Virus record (IMG/VR): IMGVR_UViG_3300021197_001894
Span: 1-35,337 of that record
DNA: 35,337 bases
Source of the DNA: a virus
Direction: 5' to 3' (one strand)
Every line of letters starts with the position of its first letter. Position 1 is the stretch's first letter. A program made the position numbers and the translations under genes. Below, piece after piece: positions 4,781-33,122 of the stretch. The notes under the pieces are model-generated. The model searched no databases and was not told the DNA's origin. It was given only the letters and a program-made list of their open reading frames with translations.

Positions 4781-5884
4781 ATGGCAAGTACATATACAAG
4801 TAGATTCAAATTAGAAAAGATGGAAACAGGGGCTAACGCCAATACCTGGGGTACAAATACCAATAATAATTTGGATGTTTTAGATGCCTTTGGTGGTGGT
4901 TATTTAGCTAAATCTGTTGCAGGTTCTGCTAATATTACTCTTTCAACTGCTGATGCAGATCCAACCGCTGAATCAGCGAATAAAGTAATTGAACTCACAG
5001 GAGCCTTAACGGGAGATATCGTAGTATTTATTCCTGCCGTTGAAAGCGATTATGTTTTCTTTAATAATACATCAGGTTCTCAAACTCTTACCATAGCTGC
5101 AACAGGTCATACAGCAAATGGTTTTGTTATAACACAAGGAGCATACTCACATGTTTATTGTGAGGGTACAGCTAATTTTAAAATTTATAATGCAGTTGAC
5201 AAATTAGGAACAACAGCTTTTAAAGGTGTTGCAACTTTTGATGCAGGAGCCACAGTTGCTTCTGGTCAAAATTTAACTGCAGGTGGTGGTAACATCACAC
5301 TTAGAAGTAATGGACAAGTTCAGGCTACTTTATTTACAGGTAGTGGTGCTGGTTTAACAGGAGTTGAACCTTTTGCTTCAGGAACTAAAATGGTTTTCTA
5401 TCAAGCCTCAGCTCCAACAGGTTGGACACAAGATACCGCTACTGCATTAAGTGATGCTGCTTTTCGTGTGACTACAGGTTCAGGTGCAGGCACAGGTGGT
5501 AGTGATACTTTTCAAACAACTTTTGTATCAACTAAAAATGCTGATACAAGTTCCGCAACAGTTTCTGTTTCAGGATCAGTTGGAGGTCATACCTTATCGA
5601 CACCTGAGATATCTAGTCACAAACATGGTATGGTAAATATGGCAAATAATCCTCCTGTAAGACCTCAACAACCTTTTCTTACTACCGCAGCATCACCTAG
5701 TGCCACTCAAGATAATCAAGTTGAGTACGATACAAATAATAATTTACGTAACGTTGCAGATGCAGGTGGCGGTGGATCTCACTCTCACCCATTTAGTGTA
5801 TCTAGTTCTTCTCTAGGCGGTACTATCTCTGTTCCTGCGATGAACATAAAATATGCAAACGTAATTGTAGCCGCTAAAGACTAA
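4781..5884 (+). CDS. tail fibre with phage tail-collar domain
   Basis: 367 residues. Residues 1-40 (KMETGANANTWGTNTNNNLD) are the N-terminal segment common to marine phage fibre proteins, probably the attachment part. A beta-rich middle follows. From about residue 200 (SGTKMVFYQASAPTGWTQD) the sequence matches the phage tail-collar domain, with the usual metal-type histidine clusters HKH (about 278-280) and HSH further on. The product is expected to be a trimeric receptor-binding or side fibre. AGAGAGG precedes the start. The oxygenase/glycosyltransferase cassette begins 4 bases after the stop. Confidence 0.78.
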   Translation: MASTYTSRFKLEKMETGANANTWGTNTNNNLDVLDAFGGGYLAKSVAGSANITLSTADADPTAESANKVIELTGALTGDIVVFIPAVESDYVFFNNTSGSQTLTIAATGHTANGFVITQGAYSHVYCEGTANFKIYNAVDKLGTTAFKGVATFDAGATVASGQNLTAGGGNITLRSNGQVQATLFTGSGAGLTGVEPFASGTKMVFYQASAPTGWTQDTATALSDAAFRVTTGSGAGTGGSDTFQTTFVSTKNADTSSATVSVSGSVGGHTLSTPEISSHKHGMVNMANNPPVRPQQPFLTTAASPSATQDNQVEYDTNNNLRNVADAGGGGSHSHPFSVSSSSLGGTISVPAMNIKYANVIVAAKD

Positions 5885-5888
5885 TTTT

Positions 5889-6440
5889 TTGTATCAAATA
5901 TTAGATAACGTTCTAAAAAAACCATCATTAAAATTTTTATATAATGAGAGTTTATCTACCTATGGTTGGCAATTAAATAGAAAATCTCAAAAGAATGAAG
6001 ATAAAGGATTTGGAGGTTTAATTCTTTCAGATAATTATCAACAATCAAATAACAGTTTTTTATATGGATTTAATATTTATTTATATCAACAAATATTGTC
6101 GAACTTTAAAAGCAACGTTTTAGAGGATCAACCACTACCTAGAAGAATACATTTAGGAGCAAAGTATAAAGGAAATGTAGGATCAAATCATAGGGACACT
6201 GATCACATTGATGATACTACTATATTATTTTTTAATAATCCTTTTTGGGAAAAAGATTGGGGAGGGGGAATTGTTATAGAGAACGAGTTAATAGATTATG
6301 TTCCAGGGAGAGCCATAATTTTTCCTTCAGTATTTTTTCATCACGTTGAACAAATTAAATCTGACGAGTCTCCGATTAGACTTGCAACAAATTTTATCTT
6401 TAACTATAATTTTAAAAGTTTAAAAAATGCCAATATTTGA
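5889..6440 (+). CDS. putative 2-oxoglutarate/Fe(II) oxygenase (first of four)
   Basis: 183 residues. The double-stranded beta-helix signature of 2OG/Fe(II) dioxygenases is visible: His101-x-Asp103 (NHRDTDH), a GGG strand at 125-127, then PGRAIIFPSVFFHH with His151 as the distal iron ligand, and Arg164 (SPIRLATNF) as the probable 2OG-binding arginine. Such enzymes hydroxylate proteins, nucleic acids or small molecules; the substrate is unknown. The start must be TTG at 5889, because an in-frame stop ends at 5870 and no ATG follows soon. It overlaps the next gene by 14 bases. Confidence 0.72.
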   Translation: MYQILDNVLKKPSLKFLYNESLSTYGWQLNRKSQKNEDKGFGGLILSDNYQQSNNSFLYGFNIYLYQQILSNFKSNVLEDQPLPRRIHLGAKYKGNVGSNHRDTDHIDDTTILFFNNPFWEKDWGGGIVIENELIDYVPGRAIIFPSVFFHHVEQIKSDESPIRLATNFIFNYNFKSLKNANI

Positions 6441-6888
6441 TCCTGACGGTAAATGTCCTCTTTTAAATAAGAAATGTATTAAGCATCAATGTGTTTGGTA
6501 TAATATGCTTCAAGGTAAGCACCCTCAAACAGGATTAGATGTTCAAGAATGGGGATGTTCCATAGCTTGGATTCCGTTATTATTGGTAGAAAACTCACAA
6601 CAAATTATGGGCACAAAGGCTGCTACAGAGTCTTTTAGAAATGAAATGGTTCAATCAAATAACATAATGACTAAGGTTTTAGCTCAAAGCGGTGATGCAA
6701 AAAAAGCAATGGCAACCGCTACTTCTATATTTGAATTGATAGGTAATCATCAGGAGGCTATTGATAAAAAAGACTCCTCTTTGGAGGATAAAACTATTTT
6801 ACAACTAAGTAATAATAAGGTAAAAGTAAAGAAAGGTAAAAAGGTAAAAAAAGATGGCAACAACAGTAAACAACACAACAGTAAATAG
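6427..6888 (+). CDS. conserved marine-phage protein with four-Cys N-terminus
   Basis: 153 residues. The N-terminus has Cys10, Cys17, Cys22 and Cys43 in the frame CPLLNKKCIKHQC, then EWGCSIAWIPLLLVEN. This is followed by a helical region (QQIMGTKAATESFRNE) and a lysine-rich, probably disordered tail. I recognise the N-terminal pattern from cyanophage and pelagiphage genomes, where it has no assigned function. The cysteines could bind zinc or an iron-sulfur cluster. The last 35 bases overlap the next gene, so the lysine-rich tail is constrained by two frames. Confidence 0.68.
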   Translation: MPIFDPDGKCPLLNKKCIKHQCVWYNMLQGKHPQTGLDVQEWGCSIAWIPLLLVENSQQIMGTKAATESFRNEMVQSNNIMTKVLAQSGDAKKAMATATSIFELIGNHQEAIDKKDSSLEDKTILQLSNNKVKVKKGKKVKKDGNNSKQHNSK

Positions 6889-7285
6889 TAGATTAACTAT
6901 TATTTTTGATGCGGCTGGATCATTAGATGGAGATGGACCAAGAATTGGAACAGGTAATACTGAATCTGACGTTATTATTGATAACGAAACTCATTTAAAC
7001 TTTCGTTCTCATACGGAGATTGATGCCAATATCCATGCTTTACAATGGAATGCTAAGACTAATACTGGAGAAATAGAGTATATAGATAATAGGGAAAATG
7101 AATCTATATCTTCTCTACCTCAATGGGCAACAAACGTTGTTATAAGAGTTGAAGCACAAAATGTTTGGAATGAATCGTTTAATACCTCTATGAAATCAGA
7201 TGATGCGGATGTTCAAGCGAGTTCTACAACAACCGCAAATACAAAAAGAGATGAGTATCTGACTGCACACAGCATTACTTACTAA
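6854..7285 (+). CDS. conserved hypothetical late protein
   Basis: 143 residues, acidic, predicted beta-rich. It begins MATTVNNTTVNSRLTIIFDA, has an EIDANIHALQWNAKTNTGEIEY segment that looks like a beta hairpin around a Trp, and ends with a helical TKRDEYLTAHSITY. I do not recognise a characterised family. The position inside the cassette between two oxygenase genes suggests either a tail-fibre accessory protein or a substrate/partner of the cassette. The start lies inside the previous gene and is preceded by purine-rich sequence. Confidence 0.6.
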   Translation: MATTVNNTTVNSRLTIIFDAAGSLDGDGPRIGTGNTESDVIIDNETHLNFRSHTEIDANIHALQWNAKTNTGEIEYIDNRENESISSLPQWATNVVIRVEAQNVWNESFNTSMKSDDADVQASSTTTANTKRDEYLTAHSITY

Positions 7286-7304
7286 AGTTTTTCTGTAAAA
7301 AATA

Positions 7305-7853
7305 ATGTTCAAAGAACACGTATTATCAATAAGCAAGTTTATACCAAAACAACACTGTAAAAAAATAATTGATTATTTTGATCACGGAGCAGAAGATGCT
7401 GCCACAGTATCTGGGATGAATAAGAATGTAAGAAATTGTACGACAAAAGATATTTTGTCTACAAAGTCTTTTGGACAAAAATTAGTTACCAATTATGTGA
7501 TGGGTAAGATTTTTGAAATTTGTAATATTTATCAAAAAAATCATAAATTTTTTAGTATTAATAAAATAACTCAATTAGATATGTTAAAATATGAGTATAA
7601 TGAATTTAAAGCAGGTTATGATTTTCACACGGATATGGGACACACATGTAGTGAAAGACAGTTATCAATATCAATAGCTTTGAACAATGATTACACTGGT
7701 GGAGAATTTGTTTTCAATTTTAATGGACAAGAAGTACAATATACACAAAACATTGGAGACGTAATAGCTTTTCCCTCTTCTTTTATGTTTCCTCATAAAG
7801 TAAATAAAATTCAAAGCGGAACTCGATATGCTTTAATAGGTTGGGTAGTATAA
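7305..7853 (+). CDS. putative 2OG/Fe(II) oxygenase, prolyl-4-hydroxylase-like (second of four)
   Basis: 182 residues. All expected catalytic residues are visible: His108-x-Asp110 (DFHTDMGH), a GGEFVF strand, then GDVIAFPSSFMFPHKV with His164 as third iron ligand, and Arg174 (SGTRYALIGWV) for 2-oxoglutarate. The N-terminus (SISKFIPKQHCKKIIDYF) matches the helical lead-in of prolyl-4-hydroxylase-type enzymes. The reaction would be hydroxylation coupled to 2-oxoglutarate decarboxylation. Nothing here identifies the target; the surrounding tail genes suggest a virion or host-surface substrate. This is the most canonical of the four. Confidence 0.8.
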   Translation: MFKEHVLSISKFIPKQHCKKIIDYFDHGAEDAATVSGMNKNVRNCTTKDILSTKSFGQKLVTNYVMGKIFEICNIYQKNHKFFSINKITQLDMLKYEYNEFKAGYDFHTDMGHTCSERQLSISIALNNDYTGGEFVFNFNGQEVQYTQNIGDVIAFPSSFMFPHKVNKIQSGTRYALIGWVV

Positions 7854-7855
7854 AG

Positions 7856-8452
7856 ATGGAACCTTTATTCATAAAAGAATTTTTACCAAAACAAATTTTA
7901 ACCTTTTTAAATTCATATTGTGTATTAAACTTTTCTAAACATAGAAATTTTGAAACAGACACACAAACAAATAGTCTTATAGGTGTCTATGGTAATAATG
8001 TCATGGAAACTCTTTTGGATATGTCTACTCCTGTTATTGAAAAAAATGTGGGCAAAAAACTTTGGCCTACTTACTCTTATTTTCGTATTTATGATAAAGG
8101 TTCAGATTTAAAAGTTCATAAGGATAGACCTTCTTGTGAATATACAGTGGCTTTATGTCTAGGAGCAGATCCTGTTGATAAGCCTTATGAGATATTTGTT
8201 GGAGAAGAAGATGAAACTTCAGATTATAAATATTATAACGAACAAGAAGAATACAGAAGATATCGAATTGATCACAAATTTCTCATGTTACCTAATAATG
8301 CATTAATATTTAAAGGTATGGATAAAATTCATTGGAGAGAAATATGCACTCATGACCACTTCATAACGGTATTTTTGCATTATGTTGATCAAGAAGGTGA
8401 TTTTAAAGAATATAAATGTGATAAGAAAGAAAGTTTAGTTTCTATTAAATAA
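7856..8452 (+). CDS. 2OG/Fe(II) oxygenase-like protein with atypical Arg site (third of four)
   Basis: 198 residues from the ATG at 7856, two bases after the previous stop. An in-frame TTG 15 bases earlier lies inside the upstream gene and is less likely. His88-x-Asp90 (KVHKDRPS) and His159 (KIHWRE) give the iron triad, inside a FRIYDKGSDLKVHKD context typical of phage 2OG proteins. No Arg is seen about 10 residues after the distal His, where the 2OG-binding residue usually lies; the region reads THDHFITVFLHYVD. Arg161 directly after His159 may serve, or the cofactor mode differs. Confidence 0.68.
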   Translation: MEPLFIKEFLPKQILTFLNSYCVLNFSKHRNFETDTQTNSLIGVYGNNVMETLLDMSTPVIEKNVGKKLWPTYSYFRIYDKGSDLKVHKDRPSCEYTVALCLGADPVDKPYEIFVGEEDETSDYKYYNEQEEYRRYRIDHKFLMLPNNALIFKGMDKIHWREICTHDHFITVFLHYVDQEGDFKEYKCDKKESLVSIK

Positions 8453-8457
8453 TCTAA

Positions 8458-9171
8458 ATGTCCTTAGATATTAAATTTATAAGTCCTATAAAAGAAATAC
8501 CCTCACCCTCTCCTTCGAAACTTTTTATACCAGATGGATTTAAAAAAATGGAAAGATCAACAGGTGGAAATCCCACTCAAGGAACGGTTAAGAGATGTGT
8601 TCCTTTTTTAGATGCCTTAACAACAGGATATATAATTCCTTTTGCGAGCGATATTCACTACATATATAATGAAGACGAAAAAGCGGCAGAGTTTACTTTA
8701 CCTAAAAATGTTACGTCTATTGATAAACATTATATAAGTGTAGGATTGCATGCCAATTCTCAGGTTGATCAAGAATTAAGACACAACAAAAGAACTGTTG
8801 AGGCTGTTTTTAAATTTACTAATCCTTGGAAAATAATTACTCCTCCTGGTTATAGTTGCATTTTTACTCAACCTTTTAATAGAAACTTTCCTTTTAAAAT
8901 TATTGATGGAATTGTTGATACAGATATATATCCAAATCACGTTCATTTTCCTTTCTATTGGACAAATGATTCTCTAAAACAATTTACAATAAAAAGAGCT
9001 AGTCCTATGGTTTTAGTAATACCTTTTAAAAGAAATTCATGGCAGATGTCAGTTGAGCATATTGGACTTTCTGAACATACTAAAAGAGAAACTAAATCTG
9101 CTAGAAAATTTTTCTACGAATTCCTTGACAATTATAAAAGAAAATTTTGGTTTAAAAAAGAATATAAATAA
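8458..9171 (+). CDS. DUF6065-like protein
   Basis: 237 residues, no membrane segment. The region PPGYSCIFTQPFNRNFPFKI followed by DGIVDTDIYPNHVHFPFYW and PMVLVIPFKRNSW matches what I remember of DUF6065, a family of cupin-like beta proteins of unknown function found in phages and bacteria. In that family the PPGY, EGIV(D/E)TD and I.P.+R elements occur in the same order. It sits between two oxygenase genes and touches the next start, so it is part of the cassette. A carbohydrate or small-ligand role is possible but unproven. Confidence 0.62.
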   Translation: MSLDIKFISPIKEIPSPSPSKLFIPDGFKKMERSTGGNPTQGTVKRCVPFLDALTTGYIIPFASDIHYIYNEDEKAAEFTLPKNVTSIDKHYISVGLHANSQVDQELRHNKRTVEAVFKFTNPWKIITPPGYSCIFTQPFNRNFPFKIIDGIVDTDIYPNHVHFPFYWTNDSLKQFTIKRASPMVLVIPFKRNSWQMSVEHIGLSEHTKRETKSARKFFYEFLDNYKRKFWFKKEYK

Positions 9172-9686
9172 TGGAAGAAGTAATATTTCAAAAAAGATCT
9201 TTGTACAAAACCAAGTACACAGGTGATTTGAATTCTCTAGATAAACAAATTAATCATTTAGCTGAATTTGATAAAGGAAGAAAAGAAACTAATATTGGAG
9301 GATATCAAAGTAATTTTATTAATTTTGGCTTTGATGAGTTATTAACCTTTGTATTTAATACTGCAAAACACACACCTTTATTACAAGACAAAAATTTCAG
9401 ACTTGGTGGATTTTGGTTAAATATAAATAAAGGTAGTGATTATAACGAAACTCATATGCATTCCATGAACGCAGTGTCGGCTGTTTATTATCACAAAATT
9501 TGTTGCAATGAATCTCCTATTGTTTTTACAAATCATATTCCATATATACAAAAACATTTGTTTAAATTTGTACCAAGTAATCAAGACATAATTTTTTTTG
9601 ATGGACTAGAACCTCATTATGTAGAACCTTGTAATCAAAAAGAACACACAAGAATATCTATAGCATTCAACTTGCTTTTAGAGTAA
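9171..9686 (+). CDS. putative 2OG/Fe(II) oxygenase of the TIGR02466 type (fourth of four)
   Basis: 171 residues. The sequence GFWLNINKGSDYNETHMHSM (residues 80-99) followed by VSAVYYHK, IIFFDGLEPHYVEP and RISIAFNLLLE follows the TIGR02466 / 2OG-FeII_Oxy_5 family, in which the proximal ligands are His-x-His or His-x-Asp. Likely ligands are His95, His97 and His149, and Arg161 would bind 2-oxoglutarate. It is clearly different in sequence from the other three oxygenases, so the set did not arise by a recent local duplication. Its start overlaps the previous stop by one base. Confidence 0.7.
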   Translation: MEEVIFQKRSLYKTKYTGDLNSLDKQINHLAEFDKGRKETNIGGYQSNFINFGFDELLTFVFNTAKHTPLLQDKNFRLGGFWLNINKGSDYNETHMHSMNAVSAVYYHKICCNESPIVFTNHIPYIQKHLFKFVPSNQDIIFFDGLEPHYVEPCNQKEHTRISIAFNLLLE

Positions 9687-9705
9687 TAAAAATAAAGGAG
9701 AAAAA

Positions 9706-10521
9706 ATGATTAAACCAGAAGAAATTAAAGATCAAAACTTTAAAATATTTTTAGGAATGCCAATGTATGGCGGTATGCTTACTGAATCGACTTTACATGG
9801 CTTGTTGGAGTTACAGTCTTGGACTCAAGCTAACAATGTTGCAATGAGAATACAAACAATGGGTAATGAAAGTTTAATTACTCGTGCTAGAAATACCATA
9901 GTCTCTATGATGATGGATCAACAAGATTTTGTTGCTACACATCTTTTATTTATAGATGCTGATATAGGTTTTACATGGCAAAATATTCAAAGATTACTTT
10001 GTATAGATAAAGATGTAGCTTGTGGAATTTATCCTAGAAAACATTTATATCTTGAAAAGATTAAAGACATTTTAGAAGAAAATCCAAATGCTACTCCTGA
10101 TGATATTGAAGCTAGGGCTTTAGGATACAATGTAAATTTTGATGACCCTCTAAATTTAAAAGGTGAGGGAGGTTTTTTTCCAGTGCAAGAAGCAGCCACA
10201 GGTATGATGCTTGTGAAAAGAGAAGTATTTAGAACTATGATGAAGAAGTTTCCTGAAAGAAAGTATGAGTCTGATCAAATTGTTAATGGTGGATCTTATA
10301 AGTCTGATAATTGTTACGATTTATTCGCTGTTGGACCCTACAAAACTAAGACTAAAGAAGGTCAACCACAAATAAGATATCTATCCGAAGATTACTACTT
10401 CTCTCGTCTATGGCAAGAGTGTGGTGGTGAAATCTGGGCTGACTTAGCTATGCCTTTAACTCACTTTGGTAATAGAGCATTTAAAGGTCATGTTGGGTCT
10501 TTAGTTGCTAAAAAAGAGTAA
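9706..10521 (+). CDS. GT-A glycosyltransferase
   Basis: 271 residues. The start FKIFLGMPMYGGMLTESTL, the NESLITRARN block (54-63) and the metal-binding DAD motif (Asp84-Ala-Asp86 in LLFIDADIGF) mark a GT-A fold nucleotide-sugar transferase. This type is common in marine phages, where it ends with a segment like YLSEDYYFSRLWQECGG and a THFG motif. It would transfer a sugar to an unknown acceptor. The cassette context suggests a virion protein, with hydroxylated side chains from the adjoining oxygenases as a possible acceptor. AAAGGAG precedes the ATG. Confidence 0.75.
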   Translation: MIKPEEIKDQNFKIFLGMPMYGGMLTESTLHGLLELQSWTQANNVAMRIQTMGNESLITRARNTIVSMMMDQQDFVATHLLFIDADIGFTWQNIQRLLCIDKDVACGIYPRKHLYLEKIKDILEENPNATPDDIEARALGYNVNFDDPLNLKGEGGFFPVQEAATGMMLVKREVFRTMMKKFPERKYESDQIVNGGSYKSDNCYDLFAVGPYKTKTKEGQPQIRYLSEDYYFSRLWQECGGEIWADLAMPLTHFGNRAFKGHVGSLVAKKE

Positions 10522-10539
10522 TTTATATATATTGGCGTC

Positions 10540-12366
10540 ATGCCATTAGTAAATTTTAGACCAGCACCCGGTATCAATAAAGAAGTCACCGACTACACAG
10601 GCGAAGGCAAGTGGACAGATGGGGATAACGTACGTTTTTTTCAAGGATTACCACAGAAAATTAAAGGATGGGAGAAGTTTATCTCCACGACTTTGGTGGG
10701 TGTGGCTCGTGATCAACATGCTTGGGTAGCATTAGATGGTACGAGATACAATGCTATTGGCACTGATAGAAAGCTTTATGTTATAGAAGAAGGATTAGCT
10801 TATGACATTACCCCTATTAGAGAAACACAAGCTTTAACTAATCCCTTTACTACAAACGCAACAACCTCAGTAGTAGTAACCGATACTGCACATGGAGCAA
10901 CGAAAGGTGACTTTGTTACTTTTGATTCTTTCTCAGCTATTGATGGCTTGGATATGAATAAAGAATTTGAAGTTACATCAGTAGCTAATAACAATGCTTA
11001 TGTTGTAACAACAACCGCTGCTGCTTCAGGATCAACAGCAAGTGGTGGTGGATCAGGCAATGCTAAATATCAGATATCAATTGGACCTGAAATATCTACT
11101 TCAGCTTTTGGTTGGGGCACAGATGGTTGGGGTGATGGAGCTTGGGGAGAACCTTCAACAGTTTCGAACGTAACCTTAGAAGCTCGTCAGTGGTCCTTGG
11201 ACAATTTTGGAGAAGATTTAATTGCAACAGTTTTAAATGGTGGTGCCTTTAGGTGGGACACATCAACAGGTGTAAGCACAAGAGCTGCTGCTATATCAGG
11301 TGCACCAACCGCATCAAGAATAAGTTTAGTTTCAACGCCTGATAGACATTTACTTTTTATGGGAACAGAAAACACAATTGGAAATATAGGTTCGCAAGAT
11401 GATTTACTTATAAGATTTTCGGATCAAGAAGATATTACTACGTATCAACCTACAGCAGAAAATACTGCTGGCTCATTAAGAATTGCTGACGGATCACGGA
11501 TCGTGGCAGCAGAGCGATCAAGAGGTCAAATACTTGTATGGACAGATACATCATTACACTCAATGCAGTTTATTGGTCCTCCTTTTACTTTTGGTTTACG
11601 ACAATTAGGTCAAAACTGTGGAATCATTGGTAGTCACGCAGGACTTGATTTGAACGGTGTTGCCTATTGGATGTCGCAAGATTCTTTTTATCTGTTTGAT
11701 GGTACAGTCAAAAAATTACCGTGTACCGTGGAACAATTTGTTTTTGACAATATTAATATAACAGGATCAGAAAACGCTTTTGTAGGTCACAACGGTGAGT
11801 ACAATGAAGTATTATGGTTCTATCCGAGAACAGGATCTGACACAATTAACGCAGTAGTGGCTTACAACTATTTAGAGCAAACCTGGTGGACAGGAACACT
11901 AGATAGAACAACTTGGATTGATAGAGAAGTTTATGACAACCCTGTAGCCTCGGACTACTTACCAACGACCACGGCCAACAATGAAGTTATCTCTGGTTTA
12001 ACTGATGGTGCCACTCAAATGTTTTTACATGAGACAGGAAATAACGCAGACGGTCAAGCCATGACAGCTTTCGTGAAATCAGGATCTGTAGAAATAGGTG
12101 ATGGTAATGATATTCTTTTTGTACAAAAACTTATTCCTGATATTCAAAATCAAGAAGGCACTTTAAATATGAATTTAGAATTCAAATATTATCCAAACAA
12201 TACGACAAGTGTCATTAAGACAGCAACCTTTACTGATACTACAGAGTTTGTAAGCTTACGAGGAAGAGGTAGAGAATTCACAGTCAACGTTGTCTCTAAT
12301 ACAACAGGCACCGCTTGGAGATTAGGAACACAACGTTTTGATATTCAACCCGATGGTAGAAGATAA
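10540..12366 (+). CDS. tail hub / packaged-DNA stabilisation protein (P22 gp10-like)
   Basis: 608 residues, longer than P22 gp10. The N-terminus PLVNFRPAPGINKEVTDYTG, then WTDGDNVRFFQGLPQKIKGW, is the signature of phage stabilisation proteins that form the tail hub below the portal and hold the needle. A beta-propeller-like middle (VYWxQ-type turns, WMSQDSFYLFDG, EVLWFYP) follows. A WG-rich insert, GWGTDGWGDGAWGE at 191-204, resembles the Trp/Gly motifs of the 328-residue tail protein. The stop overlaps the ATG of the next small gene. Confidence 0.75.
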   Translation: MPLVNFRPAPGINKEVTDYTGEGKWTDGDNVRFFQGLPQKIKGWEKFISTTLVGVARDQHAWVALDGTRYNAIGTDRKLYVIEEGLAYDITPIRETQALTNPFTTNATTSVVVTDTAHGATKGDFVTFDSFSAIDGLDMNKEFEVTSVANNNAYVVTTTAAASGSTASGGGSGNAKYQISIGPEISTSAFGWGTDGWGDGAWGEPSTVSNVTLEARQWSLDNFGEDLIATVLNGGAFRWDTSTGVSTRAAAISGAPTASRISLVSTPDRHLLFMGTENTIGNIGSQDDLLIRFSDQEDITTYQPTAENTAGSLRIADGSRIVAAERSRGQILVWTDTSLHSMQFIGPPFTFGLRQLGQNCGIIGSHAGLDLNGVAYWMSQDSFYLFDGTVKKLPCTVEQFVFDNINITGSENAFVGHNGEYNEVLWFYPRTGSDTINAVVAYNYLEQTWWTGTLDRTTWIDREVYDNPVASDYLPTTTANNEVISGLTDGATQMFLHETGNNADGQAMTAFVKSGSVEIGDGNDILFVQKLIPDIQNQEGTLNMNLEFKYYPNNTTSVIKTATFTDTTEFVSLRGRGREFTVNVVSNTTGTAWRLGTQRFDIQPDGRR

Positions 12367-14220: not shown

Positions 14221-15143
14221 TGGAAGAAGAAATTCAAGGTAAATATTTAGGGTACTTAGATAGTATCAAAGCTCTTCTTGATGATATTAAAGCGGGTGAT
14301 GTCCAAGGTGTCCCTGAACAAAAATTAGCTGAATTAAACGACCTTTATTCGAAAGCTCAAGATCAGTTTACTCAAGGAATTGGTTCCTATCAGGATTATG
14401 TTGATACAGGTGCTGGAACTATGGCAGAGGGTGTTGGTGCTCTAGGTCAAGCTAAAGATTTGTATGGGGAAGCTGCTGATGCATATAAAGGTATTGGTAA
14501 AGCTCCCACTTTAGAAGATCTTCAATCTTATATGAATCCTTATCAACAAACGATTCAAGATGAAATTGCTAGAACATACAATATAGCTAGGACTAAAGCA
14601 GACGCTAATGCTGTAGGTGCAGGTGCATTTGGCGGTGGACGTGAAGGTGTGCAAAGAGCCTTAATGACAGAAGATGAGGCAAGAGCAAGGTCTCGTTCAA
14701 TGGCTGATGCTTTTAACTATGCCACACAACAAAAGTATGCGAGAGATTTAGCTAGTGCACAAGGCTTAGGTGCAAGTGCGGGTGGTATTGGTAGCTTAGG
14801 ATCACAATTTGGTGCTTTAGGTGCAGGTCAAGCGGGTCTTGGTTTTGATGTACAAAAAGCAGGGTTAGTAGACATAGGTACCATGTTAGACTTTGCAAAC
14901 TTACAGCAACAACAAACACAAAAAGGTTTCGATGTTGATTATGCTAATCAGTTAGCACAATATCAGCAACCGTTTACAGAGTTAGGGTTTTTAGGATCAG
15001 CGTTTGGTTATGCTCCTTCTATACCTCAGGTAGCCTCGGCTGGAGGTGGTGGCAGCTTATCTCCTTTACAACAGACAATAGGATATGGAATGGCTGGTCT
15101 CGGAGCACTTAGCGGATTAAAAGGAATGCAAGGGTTATTCTAA
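14220..15143 (+). CDS. putative internal virion / DNA-ejection protein
   Basis: 307 residues, mostly helical and Gln/Ala/Gly-rich. YMNPYQQTIQDEIARTYN (about residues 108-125) followed by DANAVGAGAFGGGREGVQRA is a recognisable signature of a phage protein family encoded between the tail hub and the large ejection proteins. The Gly/Ala-rich C-terminus (GYGMAGLGALSGLKGMQGLF) is hydrophobic enough to meet a membrane. It is likely carried inside the capsid or tail and released during DNA entry. There is no enzyme motif. Confidence 0.65.
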   Translation: MEEEIQGKYLGYLDSIKALLDDIKAGDVQGVPEQKLAELNDLYSKAQDQFTQGIGSYQDYVDTGAGTMAEGVGALGQAKDLYGEAADAYKGIGKAPTLEDLQSYMNPYQQTIQDEIARTYNIARTKADANAVGAGAFGGGREGVQRALMTEDEARARSRSMADAFNYATQQKYARDLASAQGLGASAGGIGSLGSQFGALGAGQAGLGFDVQKAGLVDIGTMLDFANLQQQQTQKGFDVDYANQLAQYQQPFTELGFLGSAFGYAPSIPQVASAGGGGSLSPLQQTIGYGMAGLGALSGLKGMQGLF

Positions 15144-17518
15144 TGAATGTAGTTATGCAAAGACCAATGTTTAGACCTCAAATGGTGAGAAGACAACAGG
15201 GCAGCTCTCCCATGGGAGAAATGTTAGATCCCAATTCTGTTGTAAGAAGTGGTGAAATACTGAGTCCTGATCAAAGAAAAAGTTTTTTAAATATGTTAGA
15301 TCCCAATTCTGTTGTAAGAAGTGGTGAAATACTGAGTCCTGATCAAAGAAAAAGTTTTTTAAATATGTTAGATCCCAATTCTGTTGTAAGAAGTGGAGAA
15401 ATGTTGGTTGATCCCAACTCTGTTGTAAGAGAGGGTGAAATGCCAACAGAAGAACCAATGAATTCTTACACAAAAGCTTTATTAGATGATGAATTTAGAC
15501 GTTTTTTAATAACCGAAATACCTAACGGTCAAAATATTTTAGAAATGTTGTTACAAGGTAATACGCCTGAAAACTTTAGTACTTTAGTTCCATTATTAAA
15601 TGAGTTTACTAATTTTAAAATTTCAAACGAAATGAAAGAAAAAGGCGCTCTTCCTCCTCAAGGCGACATGATACCAGAGGAGGAATTGATGTTTTTAAAT
15701 AGATTAAAAAACATGGCTGAGGGTGGTGAAATGACTGCTGACGCTGTGGGTATTGCCGATGGACTAGATGCGGAGGAAGAAATGATGACCGCGGTTAGCG
15801 AACCGTCAGACGCAGGTATCGCTAAGGTATCCCCTGACCAGTATGTTCAGCTAATGAATGAGGTTAGAGGTGATGACATTCCTTTAGAGGGAAGAGTACA
15901 AGAATTAGCAATGAAGGTAGGAGAAAAAGACGCTCAGGACACCCCTTTATCTGTTCTCGCTTTGGTACAACCAGTTTTTGAATTAGAGGAGCAAGGTGGT
16001 ATTGCTCAAACACAGGAGGCTCAAAGTATGTCTCAACCAATGATGCCAACTGCGGCTGATCAACTAGCTAATCCGCAAAATATGGGAATAGTTAGAGCGA
16101 ATACAGGACTTTTTATTAATTCAGCAGATGCTGTGCCTTTTGCTGGGCAAGACATGTCAATGAGTTTAAAGATGCCTACAGGAAACACAGCGGCATCCTC
16201 TCCACAAAACTATGATATTTTACAAGGGATGATGTCTCCTACTCAGTATGATTTTATTACGAAAATGGGAGAAAATATGTTTGATATGGGAAAGCCACCT
16301 GTGGATATTACTCAAAGAGCAAAACAATATGAGGAAAAATTATTGGACAATGCTGATTTAAAGGGTCAATTTTTAACTAGTGTGGTCTCCCCTTTGTTGC
16401 TTCAAACTGCTCAAGACATCTTAGATCCTAACAAATCTTTTAGTGAAATTTTGATGGGAGGATTTAGTAGAATTGGCACTGCAGGTCAGGCTGGAGAGAA
16501 ACTAAAACAGCCTTATAAAACACAAGCCTTAAACTTAGCAACAAAAGACAAAGAAATTCAAGCTACGAAACAGTCAGACTTCGTTAAACTTTTTGGAGCA
16601 GAGGCAATTAAAAAAGCTTTTGCGGAACAGAAGAACAGAGAAATAATATTTCAAAACGTAGGTGGAGTTCCTATTCCCTTTGATAAAGACACTGGTCTCC
16701 CCATCAGCAGTGCGGATATATATTACACCTCTCTAACAAACACAAAAATGGAACAGATAAATAAAGGACTTAAATTACAGACAGCTCAGTCAGTTAAAAA
16801 TTTGTTCCCTGATTTAACTAATGAAGAATTAATTCAAATCGATCAAGACACAGATTACTTTGTAAAAAATAGTCCTCGATTTAAAGAAGAGTTTTATGAG
16901 ACAGATGAGGGTAGAAAATTTAAAATGTCACAAGAAGACACTTTAAGAAAAGAGTATCTAGCTCAAACAAAAGACTTTTCTTCGGCTGTCAGACAGTTTT
17001 CTATTCTAGATACCATAGCCGCAGATTCCACTGGTGCCACTGACATGGCTCTGGTCTTTACTTACATGAAAATTTTAGATCCAACCTCTGTTGTTAGAGA
17101 TAGTGAATTTGGTTTAGCGGCATCTACTGACTTATCTATGTTTGAGAATATAAGTCTGAATACCATAAACAAGATTCTCAATGGTCAAACGGTTTTAACA
17201 CCTAAACAAAGAGCAACTCTTATCTCCGCGGCGAGAGGGGCAACACTGGGAGCTTACAGAGCCTATGAAGGAGTTAGAAGTGGTTTTGAAAATATTGTGG
17301 ATGAGAGAGGTTTAAGCTCTATATCAGTTCTTCCCGACTTTACATCTAATTTAAAGTTACCTACGGTAGGTGATTTTGATAGTCTTCCTGATAATAAAAA
17401 GTTTGATTACTATAAGGAATTGGAGAAAGTCTTTAATTTACCATTAACGGATCGCGGAAAAGAATTCAATCTTGATAATCCACAAGATATTATAGACAGG
17501 ATAAATAGTCCAGGTTAA
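15143..17518 (+). CDS. large ejection-type protein with repeated LDPxSVVRxGE motif
   Basis: 791 residues. Residues 27-100 hold four copies of an LDPNSVVR(S/E)GE unit, two of them full 24-residue repeats also containing LSPDQRKSFLN. Residues about 224-290 (AGIAKVSPDQYVQLMNEVRG, then PLEGRVQELA, then VFELEEQGGIA) form a block I know from marine phages. The C-terminal part contains LDPTSVVRDSEFG (645-657) and, about 35 residues later, LTPKQRATLI, the parental-looking form of the N-terminal repeat. The role is inferred as an internal virion protein ejected with DNA. Length and neighbours fit; no lytic domain is visible. Confidence 0.65.
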   Translation: MNVVMQRPMFRPQMVRRQQGSSPMGEMLDPNSVVRSGEILSPDQRKSFLNMLDPNSVVRSGEILSPDQRKSFLNMLDPNSVVRSGEMLVDPNSVVREGEMPTEEPMNSYTKALLDDEFRRFLITEIPNGQNILEMLLQGNTPENFSTLVPLLNEFTNFKISNEMKEKGALPPQGDMIPEEELMFLNRLKNMAEGGEMTADAVGIADGLDAEEEMMTAVSEPSDAGIAKVSPDQYVQLMNEVRGDDIPLEGRVQELAMKVGEKDAQDTPLSVLALVQPVFELEEQGGIAQTQEAQSMSQPMMPTAADQLANPQNMGIVRANTGLFINSADAVPFAGQDMSMSLKMPTGNTAASSPQNYDILQGMMSPTQYDFITKMGENMFDMGKPPVDITQRAKQYEEKLLDNADLKGQFLTSVVSPLLLQTAQDILDPNKSFSEILMGGFSRIGTAGQAGEKLKQPYKTQALNLATKDKEIQATKQSDFVKLFGAEAIKKAFAEQKNREIIFQNVGGVPIPFDKDTGLPISSADIYYTSLTNTKMEQINKGLKLQTAQSVKNLFPDLTNEELIQIDQDTDYFVKNSPRFKEEFYETDEGRKFKMSQEDTLRKEYLAQTKDFSSAVRQFSILDTIAADSTGATDMALVFTYMKILDPTSVVRDSEFGLAASTDLSMFENISLNTINKILNGQTVLTPKQRATLISAARGATLGAYRAYEGVRSGFENIVDERGLSSISVLPDFTSNLKLPTVGDFDSLPDNKKFDYYKELEKVFNLPLTDRGKEFNLDNPQDIIDRINSPG
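15221..15442 (+). repeat. 72-bp in-gene tandem repeat, two full and two partial copies
   Basis: Copy 1 (15221-15292) and copy 2 (15293-15364) appear identical base for base. Copy 3 starts at 15365 and follows them for about 32 bases before diverging. A shorter degenerate copy lies at 15407-15442. The frame is kept, giving 24-residue peptide repeats. The base-level identity points to recent duplication. Confidence 0.9.
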
Positions 17519-32308: not shown

Positions 32309-32496
32309 GAAATAGGAAGTATATATTACAAAAGAAACCCGTTTATGAATACAGTGACCCTAGATCTTCAGAAAATTCAAAACACGCTGAGAATCAAAGA
32401 AAACAACAAAGAAGGTTGGTTAGTAAATTATTAGGAAAAAATTATTTTACAAATACACAATCTGTAATGGAAATAAATGAAGGAAATAAAAAATGA
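32305..32496 (+). CDS. small basic protein, 63 aa
   Basis: 63 residues, basic, Gln/Asn/Lys-rich, with few hydrophobic residues. It opens MRNRKYILQKKPVYEYSDPR and has a HAENQRKQQRRLVSKLLGKN segment that would form an amphipathic basic helix. The start and stop overlap the flanking genes by four bases each. No family is recognised. Nucleic-acid binding is plausible from charge. Confidence 0.58.
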   Translation: MRNRKYILQKKPVYEYSDPRSSENSKHAENQRKQQRRLVSKLLGKNYFTNTQSVMEINEGNKK

Positions 32497-33122
32497 AACA
32501 CAGTTATTTTAAAATACCAGGATGGTTTAATTACTCAGAAACTTACAATATCATTGTTGATCAAATTAATGATGATGGAAAAATTGTAGAGATAGGTTCT
32601 TTTTTAGGGAGATCTACTCACTATTTAGCAACAGCATTATATAATGCTGGTAAAGAAAATGTAAAAATTTATTCAGTAGATACTTTTGAGGGATCGTCAG
32701 AACACTCAAACTTAGATTTACCAAAAGATTTTTCATCAACGTTTAAACAAAACTTAGAATTTTTTATTGAAAAAGGAATGGTAGTTGTTTGTCAGGGAAG
32801 ATCAGATGATCCTAGAATATTAGAACAATTTGAAGAAGCTACTATTGATTACATTATGGTTGATGGAGCCCATGAATATGAGCCAGTCATGGATGACATT
32901 CAAAATTGGTGGTCTAAATTAAAAACTGATGGTGTGATGTTTGGGGATGATTATAGTTTAGCTTCAGTTTCAGAAGCAGTACAAGTTTCTCTGTCAAAAC
33001 TAAAAGCTAAAGGATTAGGGGTTAATAGTAGTCAAGAGCAAACTTGGTACACTGGAAAAAACCCTGAAAAACTTAAAGTTTTTGAAAAATTAGTTCCAGG
33101 CCAGAATACTTTAAAAAAGTAA
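32493..33122 (+). CDS. class I SAM-dependent methyltransferase (Methyltransf_24-like)
   Basis: 209 residues. SAM-binding motif I KIVEIGSFLGRST (Glu33, Gly35, Gly39) is followed by KIYSVDTFEG (Asp63) for the ribose, and DYIMVDGAHEYEPVMDDI (Asp124, His127) in the place of the catalytic/metal motif. GVMFGDDYS follows at 147-155. This is the TylF/Methyltransf_24 fold that usually methylates small molecules or sugars, not DNA. Its substrate here is unknown. It lies among DNA-processing genes, which is unexpected, and overlaps the previous gene by 4 bases. Confidence 0.8.
   Translation: MKHSYFKIPGWFNYSETYNIIVDQINDDGKIVEIGSFLGRSTHYLATALYNAGKENVKIYSVDTFEGSSEHSNLDLPKDFSSTFKQNLEFFIEKGMVVVCQGRSDDPRILEQFEEATIDYIMVDGAHEYEPVMDDIQNWWSKLKTDGVMFGDDYSLASVSEAVQVSLSKLKAKGLGVNSSQEQTWYTGKNPEKLKVFEKLVPGQNTLKK

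Follow-up and report, generated by a model that had tools for sequence, protein, structure and literature searches.

A 2-oxoglutarate oxygenase cassette beside a phage tail fibre gene: a possible fibre-tip maturation island with its own peptide-hydroxylase pair

A marine phage sequence of 35,337 nucleotides (IMG/VR record IMGVR_UViG_3300021197_001894, positions 1 to 35,337; hereafter the window) contains a cassette of eight contiguous open reading frames (ORFs) between a tail fibre gene (4781-5884) and the gene for a virion structural protein that we call the hub (10540-12366; phrog_3287, 1.6e-87), all of them, like both border genes, on the plus strand. An earlier note, made from the letters alone, had seen four adjacent genes resembling 2-oxoglutarate (2OG)/Fe(II) oxygenases in this cassette, and all four are present as ORFs with either family matches or a matching fold. 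Two of them, gp7305 (7305-7853) and gp7841 (7841-8452, with a probable ATG start at 7856), form the pair that is the main subject here; gp5889 and gp9171 are accessory, and the remaining ORFs encode a four-Cys protein, the small protein gp6854, a DUF6065-like protein and a putative glycosyltransferase (GT). The tail fibre, which matches phrog_31104 (7.9e-24) and the tail fibre family phrog_12796 (8.3e-9), has a conserved N-terminus and a variable C-terminal tip. The nearest named relatives of the window DNA are the pelagiphage-type phages 023Pt_psg01 and HTVC027P, via the hub gene only: nucleotide comparison against phage records gave nothing beyond two partial matches, both in that gene.

gp7305 is a prolyl-4-hydroxylase (P4H)/PKHD-like 2OG oxygenase that passes the Pfam model PF13640 (9.3e-12). 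The iron triad previously read in it, H108/D110/H164, is well kept: in an alignment of relatives both histidines are invariant, and D110 and R174, an arginine ten residues after the distal histidine, are at least 90% conserved. When the gp7305 family profile was compared with structures, peptidyl hydroxylases were matched, among them PKHD hydroxylase 3dkq (1.8e-12), P4H 5hv0 (2.9e-9), PHD2 and LH3.

Its partner gp7841 has no match in Pfam or NCBIfam and belongs to phrog_2954, a family to which PHROGs and recent papers on marine viruses give the label "ferrochelatase". The AlphaFold model of gp7841 (mean predicted local distance difference test score, pLDDT, 92.7) shows a double-stranded beta-helix of prolyl-hydroxylase type, bearing out the oxygenase-like reading of this gene. 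Against the PDB, the best Foldseek match was a Pseudomonas (P. putida) prolyl-4-hydroxylase (3.2e-7), and VIA-align gave a Z of 15.4 to PHD2-type prolyl hydroxylases (Trichoplax PHD, 3.3 A over 166 residues), with identity to bacterial P4H/PKHD/PHD2-type hydroxylases being low (10-14%). Every fold match listed was a 2OG-oxygenase fold, the absence of chelatases from that list being no test by itself; among viral models, 'Ferrochelatase [S-SM1]' matched at 5e-11. The triad given earlier as H88/D90/H159, counted from the ATG at 7856, corresponds to H93/D95/H164 of gp7841, and none of these residues varies across 40 viral sequences, some with identity as low as 27%, or across 18 additional sequences from phages and bacteria. 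Proteins annotated as ferrochelatase in S-PM2, S-SM1, S-RIM32, S-RIM44, syn9, HTVC008M, HTVC023P and HTVC033P have an H-x-D and a later H-W-R in common. The ferrochelatase identity was rejected, as none of 40 gp7841-family members matched the Pfam ferrochelatase families at E 0.1 and the fold is that of a prolyl hydroxylase; NCBIfam gave no match for gp7841 (P0005) or for the HTVC023P, S-PM2 and HTVC008M members, and a PDB sequence search with the gp7841, GT and DUF6065 profiles returned nothing useful. Judged by its predicted fold, gp7841 is not a ferrochelatase; it is a 2OG/Fe(II)-oxygenase-fold protein. Some annotators already name members of the family 2OG oxygenases (S-SCSM1, S-CREM1). 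Separately, several PHROG labels appear to be wrong for families of 2OG/Fe(II)-oxygenase type, namely phrog_274 'DNA endonuclease V', phrog_2297 'DNA endonuclease', phrog_1644 'minor coat protein' and phrog_2954/phrog_3531 'ferrochelatase' (gp5889, P0004, gp7841; L106:14226-14879).

In most relatives gp7305 adjoins gp7841 and the pair adjoins the fibre module; pelagiphage ferrochelatases have been described as always adjacent to a 2OG oxygenase (PMC9599517). Viral loci fetched with a gp7841 query held 79 gp7841-type ORFs, 11 of them fused, 33 directly beside a gp7305-type gene and 31 with another 2OG gene within two genes; three others lie at contig ends and one has no 2OG neighbour. Fusions of gp7841 to gp7305 number 12 ORFs in the fetched loci, including AIX32120 (ACG-2014f) and QFG06512 (S-SCSM1), and PHROG 3531 covers both proteins; L203:3323-4450 is an example of a natural fusion. 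Because they are fused in some phages, gp7305 and gp7841 probably form a heterodimer. In loci of the type termed C below (L022 and others), the gene directly before gp7305 encodes a conserved protein of about 183 amino acids that has an 'INYHHHxDEYD...RH' pattern, belongs to no named family and may be one more divergent oxygenase.

Variation of the cassette was followed in 80 loci fetched via the GT and 80 via the hub, the latter choice not presupposing the GT. The 30 complete hub-selected loci are rather closely related (hub identity 84-100%), and the counts from them hold for one clade: the GT is present in all 30, a gp7305-type gene in 29, gp7841 in 28, and DUF6065 and gp5889-type genes in 14 each. 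Each of these loci carries between three and ten 2OG genes (median 5), and the cyanophage S-CREM1 has nine consecutive ones, so that four in about 4 kb is not the high dose it had been taken for. Genes for gp5889, gp9171 and DUF6065 come and go among relatives, whose cassettes also hold genes for an O-carbamoyltransferase (14 loci), a sulfotransferase (8), a methyltransferase (7), JmjC-like proteins (19 and 7 loci), a tryptophan halogenase (L054) and DUF6445/2OG proteins. Enzymes of most such decorating families either act at hydroxyl or ring positions of side chains or produce them. Flavin-dependent tryptophan halogenase genes inside or beside cassettes were seen at L054:11058-12566 and L242:5645-7273 (PF04820 in both) and, as annotated, in S-RIM44 (L248:1-993); they would fit halogenation of virion proteins.

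The link between the oxygenases and the tail fibre emerged from sequence distances at 55 non-redundant loci, compared by rank (Mantel) correlation with 2000 permutations. Mean distances were 0.20 for the fibre N-terminus (first 120 amino acids), 0.66 for the fibre C-terminus (last 130 amino acids), 0.65 for gp7305 and 0.56 for gp7841; the GT, at 0.18, was far less variable than the pair genes, and the hub stood at 0.13. Distances of gp7305 and gp7841 track those of the fibre C-terminus (0.67 and 0.62, respectively) and not those of the hub (0.20 and 0.10), with intermediate or low values for the fibre N-terminus (0.33 and 0.27) and the GT (0.26 and 0.14). With hub and GT controlled, the partial correlations with the fibre C-terminus were 0.66 and 0.61 (0 of 2000 permutations). 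The two ends of the fibre correlate at only 0.24, versus 0.65 (n = 28) for the fibre C-terminus and gp7841, which lie about 900 bp apart; therefore, the break falls inside the fibre gene, and the tip travels with the pair. These comparisons support a connection of the oxygenases with the tail fibre, as the earlier note had supposed in naming a tail or fibre protein as target.

Three fibre tip architectures occur in relatives, and four module types with differing tips can be told apart. In type A, that of the window, the tip is of collar type and is accompanied by the four-Cys protein and gp6854; type B has a Gly-rich tip; type C has another fibre C-terminus plus a separate Gly-rich adhesin; and in type D the pair is inverted. 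Glycine makes up 21% of type B fibres and 30% of the type C adhesin, and inspection of the window's fibre revealed no evident collagen-like Gly-X-Y repeat. Within type A (35 loci), gp7305 and gp7841 correlate at 0.80, gp6854 with gp7841 at 0.76 and with gp7305 at 0.74, and the fibre C-terminus with gp7841 at 0.49. By this co-divergence, gp6854 (6854-7285, plus strand) is a candidate tip protein, chaperone or substrate. The four-Cys protein (6427-6888, plus strand) keeps C10, C17, C22 and C43 in 67 loci and always lies between the fibre and gp6854; it has the look of a fibre-module protein that binds metal or forms disulfides.

Scanning genome contigs turned up 20 loci with gp7841 relatives; about 13 of them are apparently non-phage, and seven of these non-phage loci look like gene clusters for peptide natural products. 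Lasso-cyclase-like proteins are encoded in Mucilaginibacter (L230, 6.5e-137), an Acidobacteriia metagenome-assembled genome (L234, 1.3e-87) and Methylomonas (L238, 9.6e-78), all three scores being under the curated cut-off, and we call these clusters lasso-like. An HprK-related kinase and a sulfotransferase occur together in L236 and L238; Spirosoma (L237) has a radical S-adenosylmethionine maturase for ribosomally synthesized and post-translationally modified peptides (RiPPs) and a C39-2OG fusion; and Rhizonema (L231 and its near-duplicate L232) has a non-ribosomal peptide synthetase module (adenylation-thiolation-thioesterase). A second 2OG oxygenase is usually nearby. This bacterial context is the strongest hint that the substrates may be peptides. 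CanE, a 2OG enzyme that acts with a helper protein to hydroxylate lasso precursors (PMC9266682), is alike, by its description, in type of function and in being helped by a partner, and gp7841 has bacterial kin in lasso-like clusters; in contrast to CanE, the phage enzymes would work on large structural proteins that lack a leader peptide. The bacterial relatives (L230, L231, L234, L236, L237, L238) may themselves include new tailoring pairs for peptide natural products.

The other cassette genes, all on the plus strand, are less closely tied to the pair. gp5889 (5889-6440) begins with TTG where its closest relatives have ATG; it scores 1.3e-5 to PF13640, just under the curated cut-off, and 8.7e-6 to the NCBIfam FlmC 2OG oxygenase, and also matches phrog_274, 'DNA endonuclease V' (3e-11), a doubtful label. 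Its proposed triad, H101/D103/H151, is invariant in 15 sequences. gp9171 (9171-9686) passes PF13759 (2.8e-9), the family match that contains and is the basis for its HxH...H motif, and matches TIGR02466 (2.1e-8) and phrog_81 (2.3e-22). The four oxygenase genes had been called unlike in sequence, and divergent they are, but gp7305 and gp9171 are distant kin: BLAST single-linkage clustering puts their counterparts in relatives together, in a group of 403 ORFs, gp7841 lying outside the clustering input. The DUF6065-like protein (P0006, 8458-9171, phrog_7084) owes that earlier name to its homologues, since 12 of 14 aligned relatives match PF19541 (best 9.3e-8) and P0006 itself does not; its model (pLDDT 82.6) has only dUTPases among the listed matches, at a Z of about 10, which is moderately above the background quoted for the tool, and a GIVDTD-like motif is conserved in the alignment of relatives. 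The GT (P0008, 9706-10521, phrog_1574) matches the glycosyltransferase family phrog_34859 (4.1e-5) and no Pfam family, its DxD (D84-A-D86) is invariant in 17 sequences, and its HTVC023P homologue scores 2.7e-4, below cut-off, to Anp1 (GT62); it is probably a GT-A-like glycosyltransferase, and it behaves as a constant backbone gene. A further homologue, phiM12 gp034 (L255), sits between recombination endonuclease and sliding-clamp genes and may point to DNA glycosylation there.

We put the probability at roughly 50% that the cassette is an exchangeable fibre-tip maturation island with its own peptide-hydroxylase pair and optional decorating enzymes. Its core would be a two-protein, probably heterodimeric peptide hydroxylase, gp7305 plus gp7841, which phages would exchange together with the fibre's receptor-binding end and its small neighbouring genes. 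Late in infection the pair would hydroxylate side chains of the fibre tip or of a tip-associated protein, with gp6854 in the window and the Gly-rich adhesins in other types as candidates. Optional neighbours, that is, the other oxygenases and, in relatives, the sulfotransferase, O-carbamoyltransferase, methyltransferase and tryptophan halogenase, would then add their marks, leaving a receptor-binding surface that is chemically diversified or stabilised. This proposal draws on the fold of gp7841, the conserved metal ligands, the pairing and fusion of the two genes, their divergence alongside the fibre tip and the location of bacterial relatives among peptide-tailoring genes.

Several points weigh against it. 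From the evidence just listed we infer catalysis, substrate, heterodimer formation, fibre hydroxylation and an effect on host binding. Unlike bacterial P4H and PKHD hydroxylases and PHD2, with which the window proteins have the HxD...H site and, in the gp7841 model, the fold in common, these proteins are phage-encoded and paired; gp7305 also has the arginine, whereas gp7841 has no Arg or Lys 8-14 residues past the distal H164, the canonical 2OG-binding position. Because this residue is missing, catalysis by gp7841 itself is doubtful, and it could be either an unusual enzyme or a non-catalytic, structural partner; its R82 and R166 are invariant and could stand in for the usual 2OG-binding residue. 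Physical linkage alone can cause co-divergence and must be part of the signal: where the GT abuts the pair, gp7841 and the GT correlate at 0.47 (n = 15), as linkage alone would give. As this control left function and linkage not cleanly separated, we offer the co-divergence as support and not as proof. In several T4-like phages the oxygenase array lies near neck/baseplate genes or a helicase and not beside the fibre, and the rest of the 13 apparently non-phage loci do not read as peptide natural-product clusters.

The published view of such genes is host-directed auxiliary metabolism, in which the oxygenases would reprogram the infected cell by targeting its metabolites, its surface or its 2OG levels. 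It has been put forward as modulation of 2OG/NtcA by cyanophages (PMC3037559), as host metabolic reprogramming (PMC9602691) and for 'ferrochelatase' and 2OG auxiliary metabolic genes (AMGs) together (PMC9599517, PMC11561400), but a host-metabolic role does not predict a pair that diverges with the fibre C-terminus rather than with backbone genes, its 'ferrochelatase' half falls because the protein has a hydroxylase fold, and the proteins are very diverse, yet depletion of 2OG needs no specificity. We regard this view as somewhat unlikely for the window. Unlikely, too, is that a recombination hot spot beside the fibre merely collects unrelated oxygenases of diverse roles, the match to fibre type being hitch-hiking. 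Accessory genes do come and go, Fe(II)-dependent oxygenases are tabulated with host-recognition genes (fibres) in metaviromic islands (PMC3909814), and a GT that adjoins the pair is likewise correlated with it; however, the pair occurs in 28-29 of the 30 hub-selected loci, its metal ligands stay invariant at 27% identity, and gp7305 and gp7841 are paired or fused far outside this clade.

The pathway suggested in the earlier note, hydroxylation followed by glycosylation by the adjacent GT, as on collagen hydroxylysine, is quite improbable in our estimation. GT and pair are both near-universal in the clade and close together, the gp7305 profile weakly touches procollagen lysyl-hydroxylase structures, P0008 has its GT-A-like DxD, and the idea itself has precedents in collagen LH3 and Mimivirus L230. 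Unlike in those systems, GT and oxygenases are separate in the window and show no co-variation, and its fibre lacks an evident collagen-like repeat. A survey of co-occurrence found no mutual dependence: in type A, GT and gp7841 correlate at 0.02 (n = 35), and the GT persists in two hub-selected loci without gp7841 (L102, L121). Elsewhere the GT family occurs apart from oxygenases: phiM12 has it among replication genes, where no gene annotated as an oxygenase lies within 5 kb of it, and in ACG-2014f it sits with tail collar genes, some 65 kb away from the oxygenase fusion. Because the GT acts as a backbone gene and occurs apart from oxygenases in other phages, the glycosylation step, while possible, is not supported. 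Modification of DNA bases or nucleotides by the 2OG oxygenases and the GT, with DUF6065 as a dUTPase-like nucleotide enzyme, is very improbable; the DUF6065 model and the phiM12 homologue beside replication genes speak for it, but the neighbourhood is one of late structural genes, the bacterial relatives lie in peptide clusters, and the gp7305 profile, which matches peptidyl-hydroxylase structures, matched no DNA demethylase at the threshold used.

Arrays of 2OG oxygenases are well known in marine phages and are larger elsewhere (PMC3037559, PMC9602691, PMC9964418). HTVC023P-type pelagiphages resemble the window in having several non-orthologous 2OG genes and a phrog_2954 protein adjoining a 2OG gene, published as oxygenase and ferrochelatase, or metabolic, AMGs (PMC9599517, PMC11561400), whereas the window protein is predicted to fold as a prolyl hydroxylase, is paired with gp7305 and follows the fibre tip in its divergence. 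T4-like cyanophages (S-PM2, syn9, S-SCSM1 with 24 genes, S-CREM1 with 10) likewise carry runs of divergent small 2OG genes that include the gp7841 family (T4-GC 615), but their arrays are larger and often near neck/baseplate genes, and ACG-2014f and S-SCSM1 carry gp7841 and gp7305 as a fusion. In the literature these arrays have been given roles in host metabolism, DNA repair or the modification of proteins in general. As far as the searched literature shows, several findings are new: the 'ferrochelatase' has a predicted hydroxylase fold and is paired, in places fused, with gp7305; the pair co-diverges with the fibre tip; and bacterial relatives of gp7841 lie in a RiPP-like context. A search mostly outside subscription literature found no published proposal or proof that these enzymes hydroxylate phage tail fibres.

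Two features of the window lie outside the cassette. Near-identical repeats of 'LDPNSVVRSGEILSPDQRKSFLNM' occur at 15143-15473, at the start of a 791-residue late-region protein, and 32493-33122 encodes a Methyltransf_24/TylF-like O-methyltransferase, whose family recurs in L067, there among the accessory genes of a cassette.

Few unexplained genes are as common in marine phages as those for small 2OG oxygenases, which as a rule are classed as AMGs acting on host metabolism. If the fibre-tip maturation island is real, many of them would act on the virion, and the 'viral ferrochelatase' AMG of pelagiphages and of a seasonal time series, in which phrog2954, taken as ferrochelatase, is seasonally enriched (PMC11561400), would be a hydroxylase-fold partner. 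An old puzzle would become testable in cultured phages by mass spectrometry of virions, and phage tail tips would be a source of peptide-modifying enzymes. A wider idea, tentative and on balance doubtful, is that RiPP-type chemistry matures the receptor-binding tips of marine phages, with a dedicated two-subunit peptide hydroxylase inherited per tip type and, as optional later steps, sulfation, carbamoylation, methylation, halogenation or further oxidation; host range would then be diversified chemically as well as by sequence. The co-divergence of gp7305 and gp7841 with the fibre tip suggests that such phages may chemically modify the very part with which they recognise their hosts.

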